A stretch of DNA of 64,000 nucleotides from contig NC_067121.1 in the NCBI RefSeq assembly GCF_021347895.1, forward strand, positions 15,263,962-15,327,961, in the 5' to 3' direction. This document shows, in pieces, positions 36,246 to 61,385 of this stretch (position 1 is the first letter of the stretch; every line of letters starts with the position of its first letter). Origin of the DNA: Acanthochromis polyacanthus (lineage: Eukaryota > Chordata > Actinopteri > Pomacentridae). The notes below the pieces were generated by a model that saw nothing but the letters and a program-made list of their open reading frames with translations, was not told the DNA's origin and searched no databases. The position numbers and the translations under genes were made by a program.

Positions 36246-36251
36246 AAAAAC

Positions 36252-36813
36252 TACGGTGGCCGACAGGGGCCAACGATCTGCAACTTACCAAAACTCCTCA
36301 GTTTAGGAAAACAGCTTCAAGTACAGAAACGATGCAAAATCACAAACTCAAACACAGGTCTACACGAGGTACAAAAGAGGATCGTGGTGCAAATGAAATA
36401 ACGCGCTGAAAAAAACAAAACGCGCTGCTGAAAGAGGAACGATGCAAAGGAGAAAACGATCTCCAAATCAAAAAACGATCTGCAAATCAAGTAACGATTT
36501 CCAGAACATGAAACGATTTCCAAACCAAGAAACGATCTGCAAACTAAAAAACGATTTCAAAACCAAGAAACGATCTTCCAATGAAAAACGCTGCATTACC
36601 AGTTACTACGAACGGAGCAGGGGACGCTCTCGGCGTAATGGGATGGAGAGAGAGAGACAGGACCGGACAGCTGCCTGAACGACTGTGCATAAAATACAAC
36701 GCGAACGGTAATGTGACTTTCATTTGAGTATATTTATTATGATTATGTTTGTATCACTACATATAATGCTGCACATACGTGGTGTTTATTTTATTGTATG
36801 TTACACCAGACGT
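36252..36813 (+). repeat. Left TIR of the 8.6-kb transposon, with subterminal repeats and leader exon
   Basis: From about 36443 to 36590 there are about eight copies of a 19-22-bp unit built on aacgat(c/t)t(g/c)caaa. These are plausible transposase-binding sites. Further in, acgcgaacg|gtaatg supplies a possible splice donor at 36708, with an acceptor ttctag at 37021-37026 before the transposase ATG. A TIR-encoded untranslated first exon and promoter are therefore likely, by inference. Confidence 0.6.
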
Positions 36814-37044
36814 GGTTAAAAAAGCCCTCTTAAAACAGTCTTCCATGCAACGTTGTAGGCTACATAAGGTGTTATGCTAGTTAATGACAGTTCAGTGACA
36901 GCTAGTTAAATCAGTTCACTTGTAAGCATGCATTATCGCCACTGTGTTTGTAACGAGGTAGTGAAGAGTGGGCTACTACTCATATAAATAATGTTACTTA
37001 GCACTTTCCTCATTTTCAGTTTTCTAGATTACTGACACCAGGCT

Positions 37045-38907
37045 ATGTTTTGCCCTTTCTGTGGACAAGAGCTGGGAACAATTTACAGGTTCTGTGGCTC
37101 ATGTGGAACCAATGTGCAGTCTTTGGAAGAATATGCAAACAACAGTAAGTGGGCTCATATTCAGCTTGTCAATTACAGTTCACACTTTGTCTATGTAAAA
37201 TGCATTATATTTGACAGCTTGTCTTGTGTACTAAAGTTACAGTGGTAGCTTGGTGATACAGTATATCTAACCCAACCTTGAGGTGATCAGCTGTGGGTCA
37301 TTGAGGTTCAGACAGTGATTTTTGTCATAAGGTAGAAAATTAGTGTTTATGCAGGTTCTGATGTTAAATGCCCATCTGTTGCCCATCAGAGGCAAAGTGT
37401 TATAATTATTATTGATTATAATTTATTAGAATAAAGTTCAGCCTCTTTATGCCTTTATCCCACTTTGTTTGGCAGGAGCAGAATCAGATATTCCCACCCA
37501 AGAGGATTTAATCCAAAGATATTTTCATCACAGCTACAGCAATGGAGAAATTTTAGATTTTTTGTCTTCAAAACACAAAATTAATATGAGTCTTCGCTCT
37601 CTGAAGAGGAAGCTGAAAAGTTTGTCTCTGTTTAGGCCGAAAGACTACTCTCCTCTTGCCACTGTTCGTGCTGCCATCCAGGAGGAGTTAAAAGGTCCAG
37701 GAAAACACTATGGCTACCGCTCAATGTGGCAGACACTGCACTCAAAGTACTCGCTCACTGTCAAGAGGGATGATGTCATGACCATCATGAGAGAACTTGA
37801 CCCACAAGGCATTCAACTACGTGCAAGCAGAAAATTTTTAAAAAGAGTGTACAGTTCTGCTGGACCAAACCATGTCTGGCATGTGGATGGTTATGACAAG
37901 CTGAAGCCGTACGGTTTTGGAATAAGTGGCTGCATTGATGGATTTTCTCGGAAGGTGCTGTGGTTGAGATGCGCAGCAAGCAACAATGACCCAGTGGTCA
38001 TTTCCCAAATTTACCTGAACTGTGTGGCTGAAGGTGGAATCATTCCAACACGACTTCGAACTGACTGTGGTACTGAAAATGGAACAATGGCTGCAATTCA
38101 TTGTACCTTAAGGTCATCTCATACTGATGACTATGCTGGGGCTGCCAGTCATTTGTATGGCTCTTCAATGGTAAACCAAAGAATTGAAAGCTGGTGGTCA
38201 TATTTTCGCAAACAGAGGTGTCATTATGTATTGTTTTTTTGTGTTTTACAAGCTACAAGCAAATTTTTAAAATGAAATTTAAAACAGACAATATAACATT
38301 ATGGTTCTTGCATGTTTATTGTTTTTTGATGAACAACAAATTATATTTTTCATGTGATTAAAACATTTTAGATTGAATCACTAGTATCCAAAAACATTAC
38401 ATGAAATGTATCAAACTCATTTCAGCTTGTGTCTTCAGGTCACAATTTTGGATGGACCTTCTGAATGATTTGAGAGAAACAAATCTCTACAATGGTAGTC
38501 ATGAGCACACATGCCTCCTGCGATTTGTGTTTATGGATGTTCTACAACGTGACCTTGATGAATGTAGAAAAAAGTGGAACACTCATACAATCAGACCTGT
38601 CAAACTGTCTCGTTGTCCTTCGGGTAAACCAGAGGTCATATACAACCGACCTCACAGGTTTGTTTTCAGTATTTAACTTTATCTTCCCTGAAATAACAGT
38701 ATAAAACATAACAATGAACAGCATTATCAAAATATGTGAAAAATTGTTGCACTTACATAATAGTAGAAAAAGTAAAAGTCTGAGTCCAAGCTCGTTAGTC
38801 CTCGTTACCTTAACCCTAACATGTAACACTAAGACTTACAACATATTTTCATTTCCAGGTTTGGTGCAACTGAGTGTGGGTTAGGAACTGCAGCCATTTC
38901 AGACTGA
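37045..38907 (+). CDS. DDE integrase-like transposase with N-terminal zinc ribbon, 4 exons
   Basis: Exons are 37045-37144, 37476-38217, 38439-38657 and 38859-38907. All have GT..AG introns and matching phases, giving about 369 aa without a stop. Exon 1 is a zinc ribbon (MFCPFCGQELG ... FCGSCGTN, two C-x2-C pairs). Exon 2 has an N-terminal helical DNA-binding region (LRSLKRKLKSLSLFRPKDYS), then the integrase core: HVWHVDGYDKLKPYG (first D), RTDCGTENGTM (second D) and NQRIESWWSYFRKQ (E). The D-to-E spacing is about 40. The family joins DNA ends by transesterification. Similarity to retroviral-type and IS3-type cores is by motif only. It is the likely mobiliser of this element and reads open, so it may be active. 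Transcription probably starts in the left TIR. Confidence 0.85.
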
Positions 38908-39129
38908 GGCCATACACAGTACATGTGGAGATCACCATCTCCAGTCACGCTTTGAGGATCTACAGAGTCAAAGTGGGATGATGCATCCACTTACCTGGGA
39001 GTCCTGCGTGGAACTCTATATGACATTGAAGAACCTGGCTGATTTGTAACCACACTGGAAATACAGGTACTAACTGTTGAACTATAGACACTGAAGGTCA
39101 ACCTAACAGTTTGTTAGAACCAAAAAAAA

Positions 39130-42100
39130 TTAGTACAGTCCAAAACCAGGTGCATTTTTTATTCCAAAGTCCATGTCCTTTTGAAACTCTTCATATGTCA
39201 TTGAGAGTGGAATTTCCATTGTGTTGGCACAGGTTCTGCTGCATGGGAAGCGAGACACCCTTTGAAAGACCAGCTTTGGTCTTGGGTTAAACCCAGATGG
39301 GGGCAGTGAACTGAGTCCTGTGGCGAACATCAGGATATCAGCGAGGGAAAGTCCTGTTTGTTTATCTGAAAGAAAAAAAGATTTACAAAAATGTGTTTGA
39401 TTATACCTGTCTTCATAAAGCATTATAGAAATAGGAACAATTGTATGACATGCTGTTGTAATAAACCTTCTGTATCGGGGAGATAGTCTCTCCAGAATGC
39501 GAGTGCTCTGGTCTCCTCTTGGCGTCTTGTGGTGCCTTGTTCACTTAGTTGAACCTCGAAAAGATTCTCCAGTGTTGTGGCTGTTAGTCGTTCAACACTT
39601 GAGCACATAAATGCCTTGAATATGGATGCATGCTGCTCCAAAGCATGAGTCACATTAAGTGCTGAAAGCCCATCCTTGAACCTACAAAATATTTAGAAAG
39701 AAAAAACACTCTAAAATGCTTAGAACAATACAAGTATCAGAGAAGACTGGTAACAGTTTTGCTTAATGTCCCGATTGTCATATGAGTAGGCACATTACCA
39801 TGTATTATCAGTGCCTGTTATGGAAATAGGTCAGTTTGCCTAAATTTGAAATTATCGCTTTAAGCAAACTAATTACTTGACATTTGATACAATTAACTTT
39901 ATGTAAAGTCTTAAAAAAGAATGCATTATTGAAAATGAAGAAAAAAGAGCATTACCTCTGTATTGAGAAATGGTTCCTGTAAATGAAGTACCACTGCATG
40001 AAGTCCTTAGTTATTATCTTCTTGTCCAACACAACCTTCGGGTACCGAAGACAACCAGCTGTCTGCAACAGACTTGAATGTTTGTCGACAACTGCATGCA
40101 GTTCATCCAGTGTTGCTGCAGCGGAAATCTGAGAGACAAATACCATACATTTAAGTGAAATGCCACAAATTTCCCTGAAAGATAAATATGGAAAGAAATC
40201 AAACTATTTCACTGTGTCCGTGCCATAGAATAAGGAGGGGCTTAATTAGGTTATTGTTATGAGAAGGTGCAAACTGGATTTTGCTACAAAGGGTTGGGTT
40301 CACTATTCATGTTAAAAAAAAAGATGGAACAAATACCTAAGAAGAGACGTTTGGTTTAAAAAACAAATTCAGGACTATAGATAGATAGTTGAGGATGTTA
40401 TTGTGTGATAACACTTTGAGCTTTGCTAATTTGACAATATACCTCAAGCAAGGAAGCCCTCATGGTATCATCTGTGATGTCCTCAACCCTTGCTTCAGTA
40501 TCAACAGTTGATTTTCCGTGAGGTGGTCGTAGAGCATTTCTGACAAGAATTTAGGGCCTGGACCGCCATGTACTATTGATGTAGCGATCATCCTCCCAAC
40601 ATAAAAATATTCGTCATCTCTGGCAGCTGTTGATATTTTACCATCCATTAGTGCCACTACAAAAATCAGTTTCAAATTGATATGAAACTGCATACCAGAG
40701 TTAATTTAACTGAATCCTTATGAAGAGCTACAACCGGATGTTGAATTTCCAGAATGAATTCCAAAATTATTTTCAGAAAACAATGTATTTATGTCCGAAA
40801 AAAAGAAAATGTTTACCTGCACAGTCGAATGTGAGAAATTTCCTATCCTCAGGATCATCAAAGATTCTCCTTGATCTAAGGCAGTCCATCAGCAGGGTGA
40901 GGAACTCCCGTTTGGGACCACCAGTGTCCACTGCATCCTCTGTATGCCCCTCATCATCAGTGCATTTAACCAAAATTTCATGTGATGGGTCAAAAGATGG
41001 TCGCTTAAAGCCTCTGAGTGCCCCATCCCATATATTTGCCCTGTTGATGTTGAACCTGTTGTATGATGTATTGTTTATTTTGGAGGCCAGTTCTGAAACA
41101 ATGTCTTCTGCACTCAAACCCTGTGGACTGTAAGAGAATATCAGAGAGATGATTCCCAATAATGAGGCCAAAAGCTATGAGCTATGAGGTAAAAAATATT
41201 ACTACATCACACCTTTCCACTGCAGGGTAATTGATGTAGTCATCTGTGTCAGACTCACTGTCGATAACTACAGGTGCATACACACTGGTGTACATGCTGC
41301 AAGGAAAGAGATCATAGGCTCAACTGTAAAATGCCCAGTTAATTGATGACACTCAATGATACCGAATATAAGGTACATTGTTACATTTCCCAGAAATAAA
41401 ACAAAAATGTGTTTGGTGGAGTTCTCAGATTATTTTCAGATTATCTATATTTACTGGACACACACTAACCAAACATGTTAAGGTTTCAAATGTCCACCAG
41501 CTTACCTATAGCAGGTATTTAGATTCTGTTCCTTAGCAGTTGGCTGCCGTCCATCCTAATTAAAAATAATTTAAAGGTATTTAAGTTTTTTTAAAACAAT
41601 CAGTACTATTGAATAGTATCTTTCAAAACTTACTTGATGAGATTCTGGTTGTTGGCATGTGGAGGGTCTAGGAATAACAAATAATGCATTAATTTCCCTG
41701 CTCCATAACTGATGTTTTGTTTATAAAGCATAAACATGACTTGACGGAGGCAGTTTTTACCCCTGCAAAAGGTCTCCCATTTTTGGGGTGCTCACGTTAT
41801 CTGGAATGTCCCAGACCTGCATACAAAACATAATATAAACAAATATAATATATATATATATATATAATATATAATTATTACAACATAATATATGGACAAG
41901 TTGTGACCTGTACATTCACCTAAAGCGCACTGCAACTTATTAGCTATGTGTGTCATAATGTTACGTAATTATGGATTATTATTTCATAGTGTGGTGACTA
42001 TGCAGGTCACTACTTGTCCACAAGAGCATTTTAAATGAAACCGACTCATAGCTTCCACTACATTCGGCTTTCCAAACCGCCCCCTTGGATCTCAAAACTG

Positions 42101-44235
42101 ATAGATAAAGTTAATGTACCTAGCAATAGAGCTCCGGGAGATGACGTCACACAATCCTGGCATGCAACAGTCGAAATCAAAACACCGCCATATTGGCAGG
42201 AAGGCACGCTGTTTAAACTACTGCCAGCTAACTCCTAAACGTTCTTCAGCGTCGACATCAGAGATATGGTGGACAGTTGTTGGGTTAGGGTTAGGGTTAG
42301 GGTTAGAACAGCCAGATGCCAGAACAGCCGAGGACGAGCAAAGGGGAGAGCATTTTATTGGATTCCCAAAGATCCTGAAAGACGACAGAGGTGGATCACT
42401 GCCATAAAACGCGCAAGAAGCGAGCAGAAGAAAACGGAGCAGTGGGAAACCGCAGGCAACGCATTCTGCTTATGTAGCGACCACTTTGTATCAGGTACAG
42501 AATCCGTTTCCTAAGCTTTATATCTGATTGCGTAATTTCTGCTCGCTGCTCATGCGAATTTAATAGGACAAAGCTACACTTACCCTCCCAGTGACGACAG
42601 CGATATCCTTCGCAGGAAGACTCCAGATCTGAATCCTAGTGACAAAGTTAGCCTGTGTCCATTTATACCCCTCAAGGCTTTTATACGCTTTAAGAGATTC
42701 ACCGGAGTAGGATGAAGGAAAATTTATCAGGTAATTGTAGATGTCAGGGTACCGCAGGTCTGGTAAAAGGTCCGCTCTGACCGCCTCAAGATTCTTAAAT
42801 AAGATACCGGGGGCATGATATGGATCGGATATGTTTAGTTTGTCCAGTTTGTTTGTATATTTTATAATATCGTCTGATTTAAAATGAAAAGTAAACTCAG
42901 ACGGCGTAAATTTTCTACCAGCGCCATTCATTTTGAAGCGGAGTTTCCTGCCAACATGGCGGCGTAAACAAACGGAGTCACGTGACGTCCGGAGCTCTAT
43001 AGGCAGGTTTGCCAAAATGTTGAACTGTCGCTTTAACATGTATGCACTTACTACAGTGTCAGAGAGATCCGTTTCCACAGACGGCAAGTTGACATGGACC
43101 ACACTGTCATCACTAGAAGACTGCCCAGTACAACCTTTGAAAAAAACACATTTAAACAAAAATTAACATTATGATTTCAGTAATTGGCAGAATTTACTTG
43201 CACAGATAAGATGTAAGTGGAAAGACTCTAAAAATCAAACTATGAATAAATTACAAAATGGTACACTTACAACTGGTTTCAAAATCCTCTGCAGTGCATA
43301 TGTATAGTGTTATTTTCTGGTACGCCTTCCCTATTGCGTCCTTGTACTTCTGGACAGTGAAAGGCTCATCTGTTCCTGGGATGTTTGTCACTTGTCTGCC
43401 ATCAGGGTACAACAAAAAATGGACAACATCTTGCATGTCCTGGTTAAAATCTGTCTGTTTTTTAACAGCAGCAGCCAATAGCTTCTCTGATGACCACTGA
43501 GGCTGAATGTCAAGAGGGAGTGATTTCCCTCTTACAGGTTTTAGGGAGTCACCAGTCAACCTCATAACTCCAACATTAATCTGCAAATTAAAAAATAACA
43601 TTAAGTAAAATCAAAATTGATACAACATGACTATTCGATATGATTGGTCACCTAAAAGGTTGAGAGGTAATCTGAACAAACTATGCAACAACCTATGTAA
43701 TGTTAACAACAGTTCATACCTTCACAGATTTCTGTGTCTTTTCACTCCGAGAGGCCTGATGCTTCTTTGAAAAGAAAGACTTTCTCTCCCTTTCTTTAAC
43801 TGCCCTAAACTGCATAAATCTCTCCATGCTTGAATTTCCCTCTGGGAAAGAAAACAAAGTACTTACATACTGATGTTTTTATTGACTTTACATTTAATTA
43901 TGTTTAAATAAAATTACTTTCTGTAGGACATTTTAGTACACCTAAAATGCCAGTTACTGAACCAAGATAGTGATATTTAGAAGTGATTTTGTATACAAAA
44001 ACATGATCTGAACATTTCAAGCCCACTTATAATCATTTTGTGTTACAAAATCCTGAATCTGTTTACCTGCACTGGTGCTGGGTTGTGCAAAATCAACTTG
44101 TGCATCAGTAGATGCACAAGTTGATTTTGCAGGTGTCTCCACTTTGACATGCTTTAAAAAAGTTATATTTTTGCCACATGCACAGCAAAAGGCATCGGAA
44201 GCTCCAAGCACAGATCCACAGAATGGACAGTACAT
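39130..44235 (-). CDS. HECT-type E3 ubiquitin ligase carried by the transposon, 13 exons, one frameshift
   Basis: Exons (minus order): 44235-44067, 43841-43720, 43580-43271, 43134-43052, 41816-41761, 41667-41634, 41555-41506, 41296-41213, 41127-40817, 40656-40443, 40128-39956, 39681-39467, 39365-39130, for about 685 codons. Exon 1 is a zinc ribbon ([11 protein letters not shown] ... FCCACGKN) like that of the transposase. Exon 3 resembles a ubiquitin-like or linker domain ([17 protein letters not shown]). The HECT domain follows ([40 protein letters not shown]) and ends [20 protein letters not shown]. Its Cys codon (39229-39231) is the expected ubiquitin-thioester residue. It most resembles the G2E3-like HECT proteins abundant in fish. 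Phases agree at every junction except exon 10, which is 214 nt where 215 is required; one base is missing near 40516, so this copy probably encodes a truncated protein. Confidence 0.85.
42266..42494 (+). pseudogene. THAP-domain first exon disturbed by a telomere-like repeat
   Basis: After an ATG the frame reads MVDSCWV, then VR repeats caused by four ttaggg-like units (42280-42306). It shifts to a frame with [31 protein letters not shown] and [11 protein letters not shown]. The last pieces are the THAP signature (FYxIP-like strand, Trp, C-x2-H with F), and a donor ag|gtacag follows at 42494. The N-terminal Cys spacing is broken by the hexamer repeat. This is the first exon of an ISL2EU-type transposase whose remaining exons have been deleted. 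Confidence 0.6.
42590..42932 (-). pseudogene. First exon of an ISL2EU-associated YqaJ-type protein
   Basis: The minus-strand frame starts [20 protein letters not shown] and continues with [40 protein letters not shown] and [20 protein letters not shown]. It ends at a donor ggg|gtaagt-like site near 42586. This is the conserved N-terminal region found in fish proteins whose downstream part is a YqaJ exonuclease domain, many of them carried by ISL2EU transposons. The nuclease itself is not in the window. The exon reads open but is orphaned. Confidence 0.6.
44087..44130. repeat. Perfect 20-bp palindrome inside the HECT gene's first exon
   Basis: Positions 44087-44106 and 44111-44130 are exact reverse complements around agta. 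The palindrome lies in coding sequence and is translated as part of the Ala/Ser/Thr-rich linker after the zinc ribbon. Confidence 0.95.
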
Positions 44236-44333
44236 CTACAAAAGAAAAAAGACATGTTTTAGGTATGGAGAACTGTAATAAGGGAATCTCTAATAAATTT
44301 AGCTTATTTCTCAGGCTAATGTGCTGCCTTGCA

Positions 44334-44873
44334 ACGTCTGGTGTAACACACAATAAAATAAACGCCTCGTATGTGCAGCATTATATGTAGTGATACAAAC
44401 ATAATCATAATAAATATACTCAAATGAAAGTCACATTACCGTTCGCGTTGTATTTTTATGCACAGTTGTTCACTCAAAGACACTGGTTCAGGCAGCTGTC
44501 CGGTCCTGTCTCTCTCTCCATCCCATCTGTTACGCCGGGAGCACCCCCTGCTGGTTTGGATCAGTTCCGTTCGTAGTGACCGGTAATGCAGCGTTTTTCA
44601 TTGGAAGATCGTTTCTTGGTTTTGAAATCGTTTTTTAGTTTGCAGATCGTTTTTTGATTTGGAGATCGTTTTCTCCTTTGCATCGTTCCTCTTTCAGCAG
44701 CGCGTTTTGTTTTTTTCAGCACGTTATTTCATTTGCACCACGATCCTCTTTTGTACCTCGTTTAGACCTGTGTTTGAGTTTGTGATTTTGCATCGTTTCT
44801 GTACTTGAAGCTGTTTTCCTAAACTGAGGAGTTTTGGTAAGTTGCAGATCGTTGGCCCCTGTCGGCCACCGTA
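44334..44873 (-). repeat. Right TIR of the 8.6-kb transposon, with leader exon
   Basis: It is the inverse of 36252-36813, lacking about two or three of the 20-bp subrepeats and with small local differences. The same gcgaacg|gtaatg donor appears on the minus strand (GT at 44439-44438). An acceptor ttgtag lies immediately before the HECT ATG at 44235. This again suggests a TIR-borne promoter and leader exon. Confidence 0.6.
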
Positions 44874-44879
44874 AAAAAC

Positions 44880-60489: not shown

Positions 60490-61385
60490 ATCCCCCGCCT
60501 TATATATAGTACCTCTAAGTGCAAGAAATAATAATATATACTGGACAATACACCTACAAAATGATACATCTTCACTACAATAAAAACAATCAGGTCAAGG
60601 TCATACACCAAAAAAGGCAGATCTACATTATGCACAGGTGGCGTTGGTGCAATATGCATGAAATCCTTCAGGTAGTTTCTGACATATGGTCCAGAAACAG
60701 AATCAAAAAATATTTGAAGTGCCTCACAATGACCTTGAAAATAAGGTGAAGGTCATGCACCCGAAAAAGCACATCTACATTACTAACAGGCTTAGTGTGT
60801 GCAATATGAAGGAAAACCTTCAACTGGTTTCTCAGATATGCTCCGGAAACAAAAAAATATTTGAAGTGCCTCACAATGACCTTGAAAATCAGGTCAAGGT
60901 CATACACCCAAAAAGGCACATCTACATTATTCACAGGTGGTGTGGGTGCAATATGCATTAAATACTTCAGGTAGTTTCTGACATATGCTCCAGAAACAGA
61001 ATCAAAAAATATTTTAAGTGCCTCACAATGACCTTGAAAATCAGGTCAAGGTCATGCACCCCAAAAGGCACATCTACATTACCAACAGGCTTATTGTGCG
61101 TAATATGAGTGAAATCCCTCAACTAGTTTCTGAGATATGATCCGGAAACCAAAAAATATTTGAAGTGCCTCACTATGACCTTGAAAATCAGGTCAAGGTC
61201 ATGCACCCCAAAAGGCACATCTATACTATATAGAGATGGCCTGGGTGCAATATGAATGAAATCCCTCAAGTAGTTTCAGAGATATGCTCTGGAAACGAAA
61301 TGTGGACATATGTACGTACGTACGGACATACGGACGGACGTGCCCACGCCAATATCCCCCTCCGTGCCTATGGCCGGCGGGGGAT
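60490..61385. mobile_element. Element with atcccccgcc ends filled by an approximately 150-bp minisatellite
   Basis: atcccccgcc at 60490-60499 is inverted at 61376-61385. Between them a unit of 147-152 bp, containing aaatatttgaagtgcctcac and gaccttgaaaatcaggtcaag, is repeated at 60711, 60858, 61010 and 61157. Neighbouring units alternate between two variants (caggtggtgtgggtgcaata against caacaggctta). The right end has acgtacgtacgg and cggacggacg runs. It looks like a non-autonomous transposon with an internal tandem array; superfamily unknown. Confidence 0.65.

Follow-up and report, generated by a model that had tools for sequence, protein, structure and literature searches.

A 64,000-nucleotide stretch of the genome of the spiny chromis, Acanthochromis polyacanthus (here called the window), contains at positions 36252-44873 a transposon with the ends TACGG..CCGTA that resembles the IS3EU elements. 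The element carries two genes, one for a DDE transposase with an rva_4 integrase core and one for a HECT ubiquitin ligase, and is most probably a cut-and-paste transposon of fish in which the ligase gene is a stably inherited accessory gene. The anatomy of the element and the accessory role of the HECT gene are, taken by themselves, very likely to be correct. The accessory-gene reading follows from three families of elements that have the same tips, the same convergent gene order, joint divergence of both genes, a conserved thioester cysteine and zinc ribbons that look homologous.

Ends and target site of the element

Read as its reverse complement, the right end of the element (position 44873) is identical to the left end tacggtggccgacaggggcc (position 36252). 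The left terminal inverted repeat (TIR; 36252-36813, + strand) is 562 bp long and starts with TACGGTGGCCGA, and the right TIR (44334-44873, - strand) is 540 bp long and terminates with TCGGCCACCGTA. In an alignment of the two arms, 492 of the 599 columns were identical and 96 were gapped. The best ungapped pair of arms was 94% identical over 280 nt, a match that ruled out chance similarity. A subterminal tandem array with a 19-bp unit AAAACGATCTCCAAACCAA lies within the left TIR (36453-36588, + strand) and is mirrored in the right TIR.

The sequence AAAAAC is present on both sides of the element (36246-36251 and 44874-44879) as an identical 6-bp target site duplication (TSD), which is A-rich and, taken singly, weak evidence. 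The TSD was also determined in six further elements of the same family (family A; C4, C7, C19, C4:14.1 Mb, C9:22.5 Mb and C10:30 Mb), and in all seven the ends were fixed by alignment before the flanks were examined. Six of the seven had a perfect 6-bp TSD, and the remaining one matched in 5 of 6 bases. An eighth element, at C8:29 Mb, had a perfect TSD as well, but it was picked out by a scan in which equal flanks were a condition. The mirror-image ends, long TIRs and TSD that had been described in an earlier reading of the letters alone (the sequence-only reading) were thereby confirmed.

Transposase gene

The two multi-exon genes lie tail-to-tail between the TIRs. The transposase gene (37045-39049, + strand) has four exons with GT/AG splice sites, at 37045-37144 (zinc ribbon), 37476-38217 (helix-turn-helix and DDE core), 38439-38657 and 38859-39049. 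The spliced protein matched the Pfam integrase core rva_4 with an E value of 3.5e-33, while the matches to HTH_21 and rve were weak and below the cut-off. Its N-terminal ribbon has the form CxxC..CxxC. The putative catalytic triad consists of D171, D230 and E271, with 40 residues separating the second D from the E, and was invariant in all 16 transposase relatives aligned. No match was obtained when the PDB was searched with a profile of the transposase alignment, and a scan of viral contigs with the family-B transposase found no relative.

HECT ligase gene

The HECT gene (39130-44235, - strand) has 13 exons, and its stop lies 80 bp from the unshifted stop of the transposase. Exons 1 to 4 are at 44235-44067 (zinc ribbon), 43841-43720, 43580-43271 (ubiquitin-like domain) and 43134-43052, and exons 5 to 9 at 41816-41761, 41667-41634, 41555-41506, 41296-41213 and 41127-40817. 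They are followed by exons 10 and 11 at 40626-40443 (alternative splice site 40656) and 40128-39956, and by exons 12 and 13 at 39681-39467 and 39365-39130, the last of which encodes the thioester cysteine and the GFGL end. Exons 2 to 10 were supported by comparison with the annotated protein P0126, and exon 1 and the last exons by comparison with the Siganus protein P0121. The annotated A. polyacanthus proteins LOC127535418 and LOC127535413 match the two genes of the element at 98% and 97%.

With an X placed at a frameshift, the window HECT protein matched the Pfam HECT domain with an E value of 4.1e-13. The hidden Markov model searches thus agreed with the sequence-only reading, which had named a DDE transposase and a HECT ligase in two convergent multi-exon genes. 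The zinc-ribbon matches of both proteins were weak and below the curated cut-offs. The HECT part was modelled on the Siganus relative P0121, mostly at a predicted local distance difference test score (pLDDT) above 90, and the top Foldseek match of this model was the HECT domain of Smurf2 (E 7e-15; TM 0.35/0.54). The HECT profile could also be aligned to the C-lobes of AREL1 and NEDD4-like ligases. The middle domain of the window protein was modelled as a ubiquitin-like beta-grasp with a pLDDT of 92.5; LC3 and ubiquitin were its top matches in the PDB, but the matches were weak (best E 1.2e-2; none at 1e-3).

Relatives of both proteins were collected as the best 120 of 984 for the transposase and as at least 118 for the HECT protein (from the 7,991 candidates that had the most words in common with the query), and the counts given below are among these matches listed. 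Of the 118 HECT relatives 70 had a complete C-terminus, and as judged by eye each of these kept the thioester cysteine; the other 48 were without that end. A later search yielded 106 new HECT proteins, and the cysteine was kept in all 78 that had a complete C-terminus (77 by pattern, 1 by eye). By its fold and its C-lobe cysteine the second gene of the element is a HECT E3 ligase, which is predicted to transfer ubiquitin.

Copies in the genome of A. polyacanthus

Two other full-length copies, C4 (C4:5140519-5148223) and C7 (C7:41413319-41421457), contain both genes at 96 to 97% nucleotide identity. The window copy is full-length and structurally complete but mildly decayed, as both genes are frameshifted by small indels. 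In the last exon of its transposase 14 bp that are present in C4 and C7 are deleted; the frame of the C-terminus is shifted, and the transposase reading therefore ends at the stop at 38905-38907. Compared with C4 and C7, the HECT exon at 40443-40626 (- strand) is frameshifted by 1 nt. In copy C4 a stretch of 131 bp is missing from a transposase exon, and copy C7 has early stops in the transposase.

The description of the window element as complete, given in the sequence-only reading, was therefore correct for the structure and not for the genes, whose frameshifts had been overlooked, and the element also holds a nested insert of 871 bp. This insert (42128-42998, edges +/- 1-3 bp, strand unassigned) lies in a HECT intron, has the ends AGAGCTCCGG..CCGGAGCTCT, is missing from C4 and C7, and is not part of the two-gene system. 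It contains a THAP-like reading frame, predicted by eye, and four telomere-like GGGTTA units (42282-42305). Exon 1 of the HECT gene in the window copy has 18 bp more than in C4 and C7, and a perfect 21-bp hairpin (44086-44131) lies inside the same exon.

When the 957-Mb genome was queried with the family-A TIR, at least 59 matches were obtained (40 of 70 candidates scored). The DNA was read for 20 stretches, which represented 19 distinct family-A TIR loci besides the window. Catalytic exons were present in 3 of the 20 distinct loci, and all 3 had both genes; a copy with a single catalytic gene was found at none of the 20 TIR loci read. The sequence-only reading had left open whether the ligase was cargo or a working part of the transposon, and these loci gave better support to a working part. 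It had also tied an accidental capture to TIR copies that regularly lack the HECT gene, and the 20 loci included no copy with a transposase and without a HECT gene. An accidental single capture was ruled out by C4 and C7, by two further families (B and C, see below), by distant loci and by other species.

With HECT exons as the query, 52 matches were obtained, which fell into about 29 distinct loci. The DNA was read at ten of these, namely the window, C4, C7, the six weakest-scoring loci and one stronger locus, so that the sample was not random and 19 of the approximately 29 loci were outside it. A convergent rva_4 transposase was present at nine of the ten (the window, C4, C7, L031-L035 and L038; the tenth was L036). 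The main match of the transposases at L031, L034 and L035 was only 31 to 36% like the best query, yet the convergent pairing was the same, which indicates that the pairing is old.

Families B and C and the shared zinc ribbon

Families A, B and C have the termini TACGG..CCGTA in common, and their first 12 bases, TACGGTGGCCGA, are identical. In the family-B element the HECT gene lies between the TIRs, with CATTTC on both sides. The family-C element (C9:14330995-14337073) has the TSD CCTTTG and the ends TACGGTGGCCGAGAGG; no stop or shift was seen in its transposase exons, and its HECT exons closely match P0172. Repeats of about 19 bp are present in the family-A TIR and of about 18 to 22 bp in the family-B TIR.

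The TIRs of family C are 463 to 464 bp long and 98.9% identical, and they cover the 5' region, the start codon and the ribbon codons of both genes. A TIR that encodes a domain common to both proteins is the most unusual feature of the system. In the window both proteins open with M(F/Y)CPFCG..C..CG, as was evident from direct reading. The zinc ribbons had been noticed in the sequence-only reading, their homology had not; by sequence the two look homologous, rather than like two unrelated fingers. A wider ribbon pattern was found near the N-terminus of 41 of the 120 transposases and 42 of the 118 HECT proteins, and proteins without it may be missing the first exon. The ribbons of transposase and HECT protein were identical in 38 of 38 residues between Polypterus and Erpetoichthys and in 35 of 36 residues in Oryzias melastigma.

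Pairing and joint divergence in other fish

Common contigs were recognised by equal size and species name rather than by accession, and 114 transposases and 110 HECT proteins were compared. Ten contigs were common to the transposase and HECT lists, with the same species each time, and one of them was that of the window. Both proteins shared a contig in seven other fish species. Small common contigs were found in Takifugu flavidus (31 kb), Triplophysa rosa (81 kb and, in addition to the ten, a second contig of 51,121 bases) and Brachyhypopomus (463 kb), and the gene identifiers of transposase and HECT protein were consecutive in Archocentrus, Notolabrus, Dissostichus mawsoni and Gymnodraco. Two common contigs were of chromosome size (39954782 and 43855677); they show no adjacency, are no proof of linkage and were dropped from the Mantel test.

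In this test the identities of transposase and HECT protein diverged jointly, with a Mantel r of 0.571 that was reached in 9 of 20,000 permutations, for ten linked pairs that were not independent of one another. The second T. rosa pair was outside this set, and a value of 20% was entered for one comparison that was missing. Family C was represented by the C9 transposase piece together with HECT protein P0172, annotated on C20, as a substitute, and family B by a single HECT piece whose reading ran through an intron. When families A and C were compared, the proportion of nonsynonymous differences (pN) was less than half the proportion of synonymous differences (pS) in both genes, at 0.345 against 0.740 for the HECT gene and at 0.306 against 0.830 and 0.240 against 0.816 for the transposase, with pS near saturation.

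The name G2/M phase-specific E3 ubiquitin-protein ligase was borne by 64 of the 118 HECT proteins (hand count), and in three cases the contig of a protein so named, less than 0.5 Mb long, also holds an rva_4 transposase from that species. These figures support the prediction of the sequence-only reading that many G2E3-like genes of fish are transposon genes. Three transposase or HECT proteins of Sarotherodon galilaeus (P0031, P0061 and P0150), named solute carrier family 15, gamma-butyrobetaine dioxygenase and PP2A regulatory subunit, are apparently transposon genes annotated as host genes.

Related HECT proteins were also seen in the corals Montipora, Acropora, Paramuricea and Oculina and in the hemichordate Ptychodera (P0282, P0300, P0314, P0328 and P0332), four of the five being named G2/M phase-specific E3 ligase. 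A distant HECT relative, P0326, has by eye the architecture zinc ribbon, ubiquitin-like stretch and HECT domain.

Proposed mechanism and alternative explanations

The shared ribbon may be a common address of transposase and ligase, which would direct both to the subterminal repeats in the TIR or to a partner that they have in common. In that case the ligase would be positioned with the transposase at the ends of the element and would ubiquitylate what is present there. Recruitment of the ligase by the zinc ribbon is advanced tentatively. As a first guess the substrate would be the transposase or the strand-transfer complex, which would be dismantled so that the ends could pass to repair; a host silencing or repair factor would be the next guess. 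Any one substrate that is named here is unlikely to be the true one. In its widest form the proposal would make the TIR a coding device from which transposase and ligase both obtain a promoter, a start codon and an address tag in the form of the zinc ribbon, with ubiquitylation steering disassembly of the transpososome or repair. The unit would be old in ray-finned fish and, in view of the coral and hemichordate relatives, perhaps in animals, and many G2E3-like genes would be its ligase. This wide form is possible, and we would not call it probable.

Several observations weigh against the accessory-gene reading or against the shared address. At the other 17 family-A TIR loci no match to the catalytic part of the transposase was found, and of the HECT gene at most small fragments of the 5' exons were present; L036 was a HECT piece without a transposase. 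At L031, L033, L034 and L035 the ends of the element were left unassigned, and the left end of family B carries one additional C. Copies C4 and C7 (L009 and L010) share a 1-nt insertion in the HECT exon that corresponds to 43271-43580 of the window, which suggests either that a source with a broken HECT gene stayed mobile, in trans, or that a homopolymer (run of A) slipped twice. The ratio of nonsynonymous to synonymous substitution rates (dN/dS), a comparison raised for the HECT gene in the sequence-only reading, was 0.39 to 0.84 among the three family-A copies, as in dead copies, with changes too few to decide.

As to the ribbons, the highly similar pairs of Polypterus/Erpetoichthys and of Oryzias melastigma are not tied to one element. 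Over all proteins listed, the mean identity between transposase and HECT ribbons was 0.45, whereas ribbons of transposases were on average 0.48 identical to one another and those of HECT proteins 0.53. Exon 1 lies outside the TIR in families A and B, whose two ribbons agree at only about 50%, so that strict sharing of the ribbon is not required. Gene conversion of a TIR that covers exon 1 would produce the same ribbon identity as a common address.

The alternative that survives best is that the ligase acts in trans, away from the ends, as an anti-defence factor on silencing, interferon or repair proteins of the host, and that the shared ribbon is a relic of the acquisition of a promoter by the second gene. 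Some genes carried by transposons are thought to counter host silencing, an example in the available text of PMC12730594 being TET/JBP in fungal IS3EU elements, and the ubiquitin-like domain, a weak structural match, could bind host factors. The ribbon identity in family C suggests instead a joint target of the two proteins, although gene conversion of the TIR alone could cause it. We consider such an action in trans rather unlikely.

It is improbable that an ancestral element acquired the HECT gene a single time and that the gene has since been a passive load with no part in transposition. Copies that have neither catalytic gene have spread, C4 and C7 share a HECT frameshift, and dN/dS is near neutral in the family-A copies, all of which would suit a passenger. 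A passenger would be hard to reconcile with a thioester cysteine kept in 70 of 70 complete C-termini, with pN well below pS between families, with convergent pairing at loci whose transposases are 31 to 36% like the queries, and with a ribbon common to both genes. It is extremely improbable that a transposon happened to insert into or beside a G2E3 paralogue of the host, as the public annotation of 64 of the 118 relatives might suggest, because the HECT gene lies between TIRs in the family-C element and in three family-A copies that are unlinked, each time with an exact TSD, lies between the TIRs of the family-B element, and is accompanied by a transposase at nine of the ten HECT loci read.

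Other features of the window

Further long inverted-repeat pairs were present in the window at 53962-54146/55423-55607, 10726-10942/14229-14441, 12352-12525/13716-13888 and 34703-34821/35116-35234. These are probably additional transposons or foldback elements. A tandem array with a period of about 299 bp, whose two copies are 91% alike, was found at 60588-61301.

Comparison with known systems

In a literature search no paper was found that joined IS3EU elements with a HECT gene, most subscription journals being outside the search and a Repbase entry with a HECT frame being possible. Likewise, no paper was found that joined a HECT domain, a DNA transposon and terminal inverted repeats. Transposons linked to ubiquitin have hitherto been known through proteases, such as those of Ginger1, and here a ligase is kept beside the transposase across many fish. 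A natural system of two genes makes the steering of transposition by ubiquitin directly testable, and the ribbon encoded in the TIR suggests a way in which an element may direct an accessory enzyme to where its own ends lie. As many G2E3-like genes of fish are probably genes of mobile elements, studies of gene-family expansion and of selection are affected.

Vertebrate G2E3 carries a PHD/RING array before its HECT domain. The protein of the element resembles it in the HECT domain, and the name G2E3 is in use for many of these genes. It differs in that it consists of a zinc ribbon, a ubiquitin-like domain and a HECT domain, and no PHD/RING array was found in the Pfam search. Unclassified repeats of Cottus match G2E3, according to the part of PMC5638112 available, which is consistent with a transposon-borne HECT gene.

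The Ginger1 elements are similar in that an integrase-type transposon is tied to the ubiquitin/SUMO pathway. In the accessible part of PMC2836005 their transposases are described as bearing OTU or Ulp1 domains, to which the authors ascribe a possible part in transposition or repair, and the elements as having a 4-bp CCGG/CCGT TSD and TGTNR ends. The domains of Ginger1 are fused proteases that remove ubiquitin or SUMO, whereas the ligase of the present element is encoded by a separate gene and is predicted to add ubiquitin. The 6-bp TSD and the TACGG ends are further differences, and HECT is not mentioned in PMC2836005.

The closest likeness is to IS3EU. From the portions of the sources available (Kojima & Bao 2023, PMC10045372; PMC12730594), members of this Repbase superfamily have TA..TA termini (TAYGG..CCRTA in rust fungi), 6-bp TSDs and TIRs of more than 30 bp, and they encode an integrase-type DDE transposase with extra genes beside it. 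In fungal IS3EU elements with TET/JBP the extra genes include one for an alpha-kinase, in the orientation opposite to that of the transposase (PMC12730594, 2025). Neither HECT nor ubiquitin is mentioned in PMC12730594, and ubiquitin is not mentioned in PMC10045372. The window element agrees with IS3EU in its TACGG..CCGTA ends, 6-bp TSD, TIRs of 562 and 540 bp and possession of an extra gene. The transposases of IS3EU are of an integrase type like that of IS3 or IS481 and have no retroviral HHCC motif; on this point the window protein shows the rva_4 core, the weak HTH_21 and rve matches and the CxxC..CxxC ribbon. It differs in that the extra gene is a HECT ligase and that a zinc ribbon, encoded by the TIR in family C, opens both proteins.

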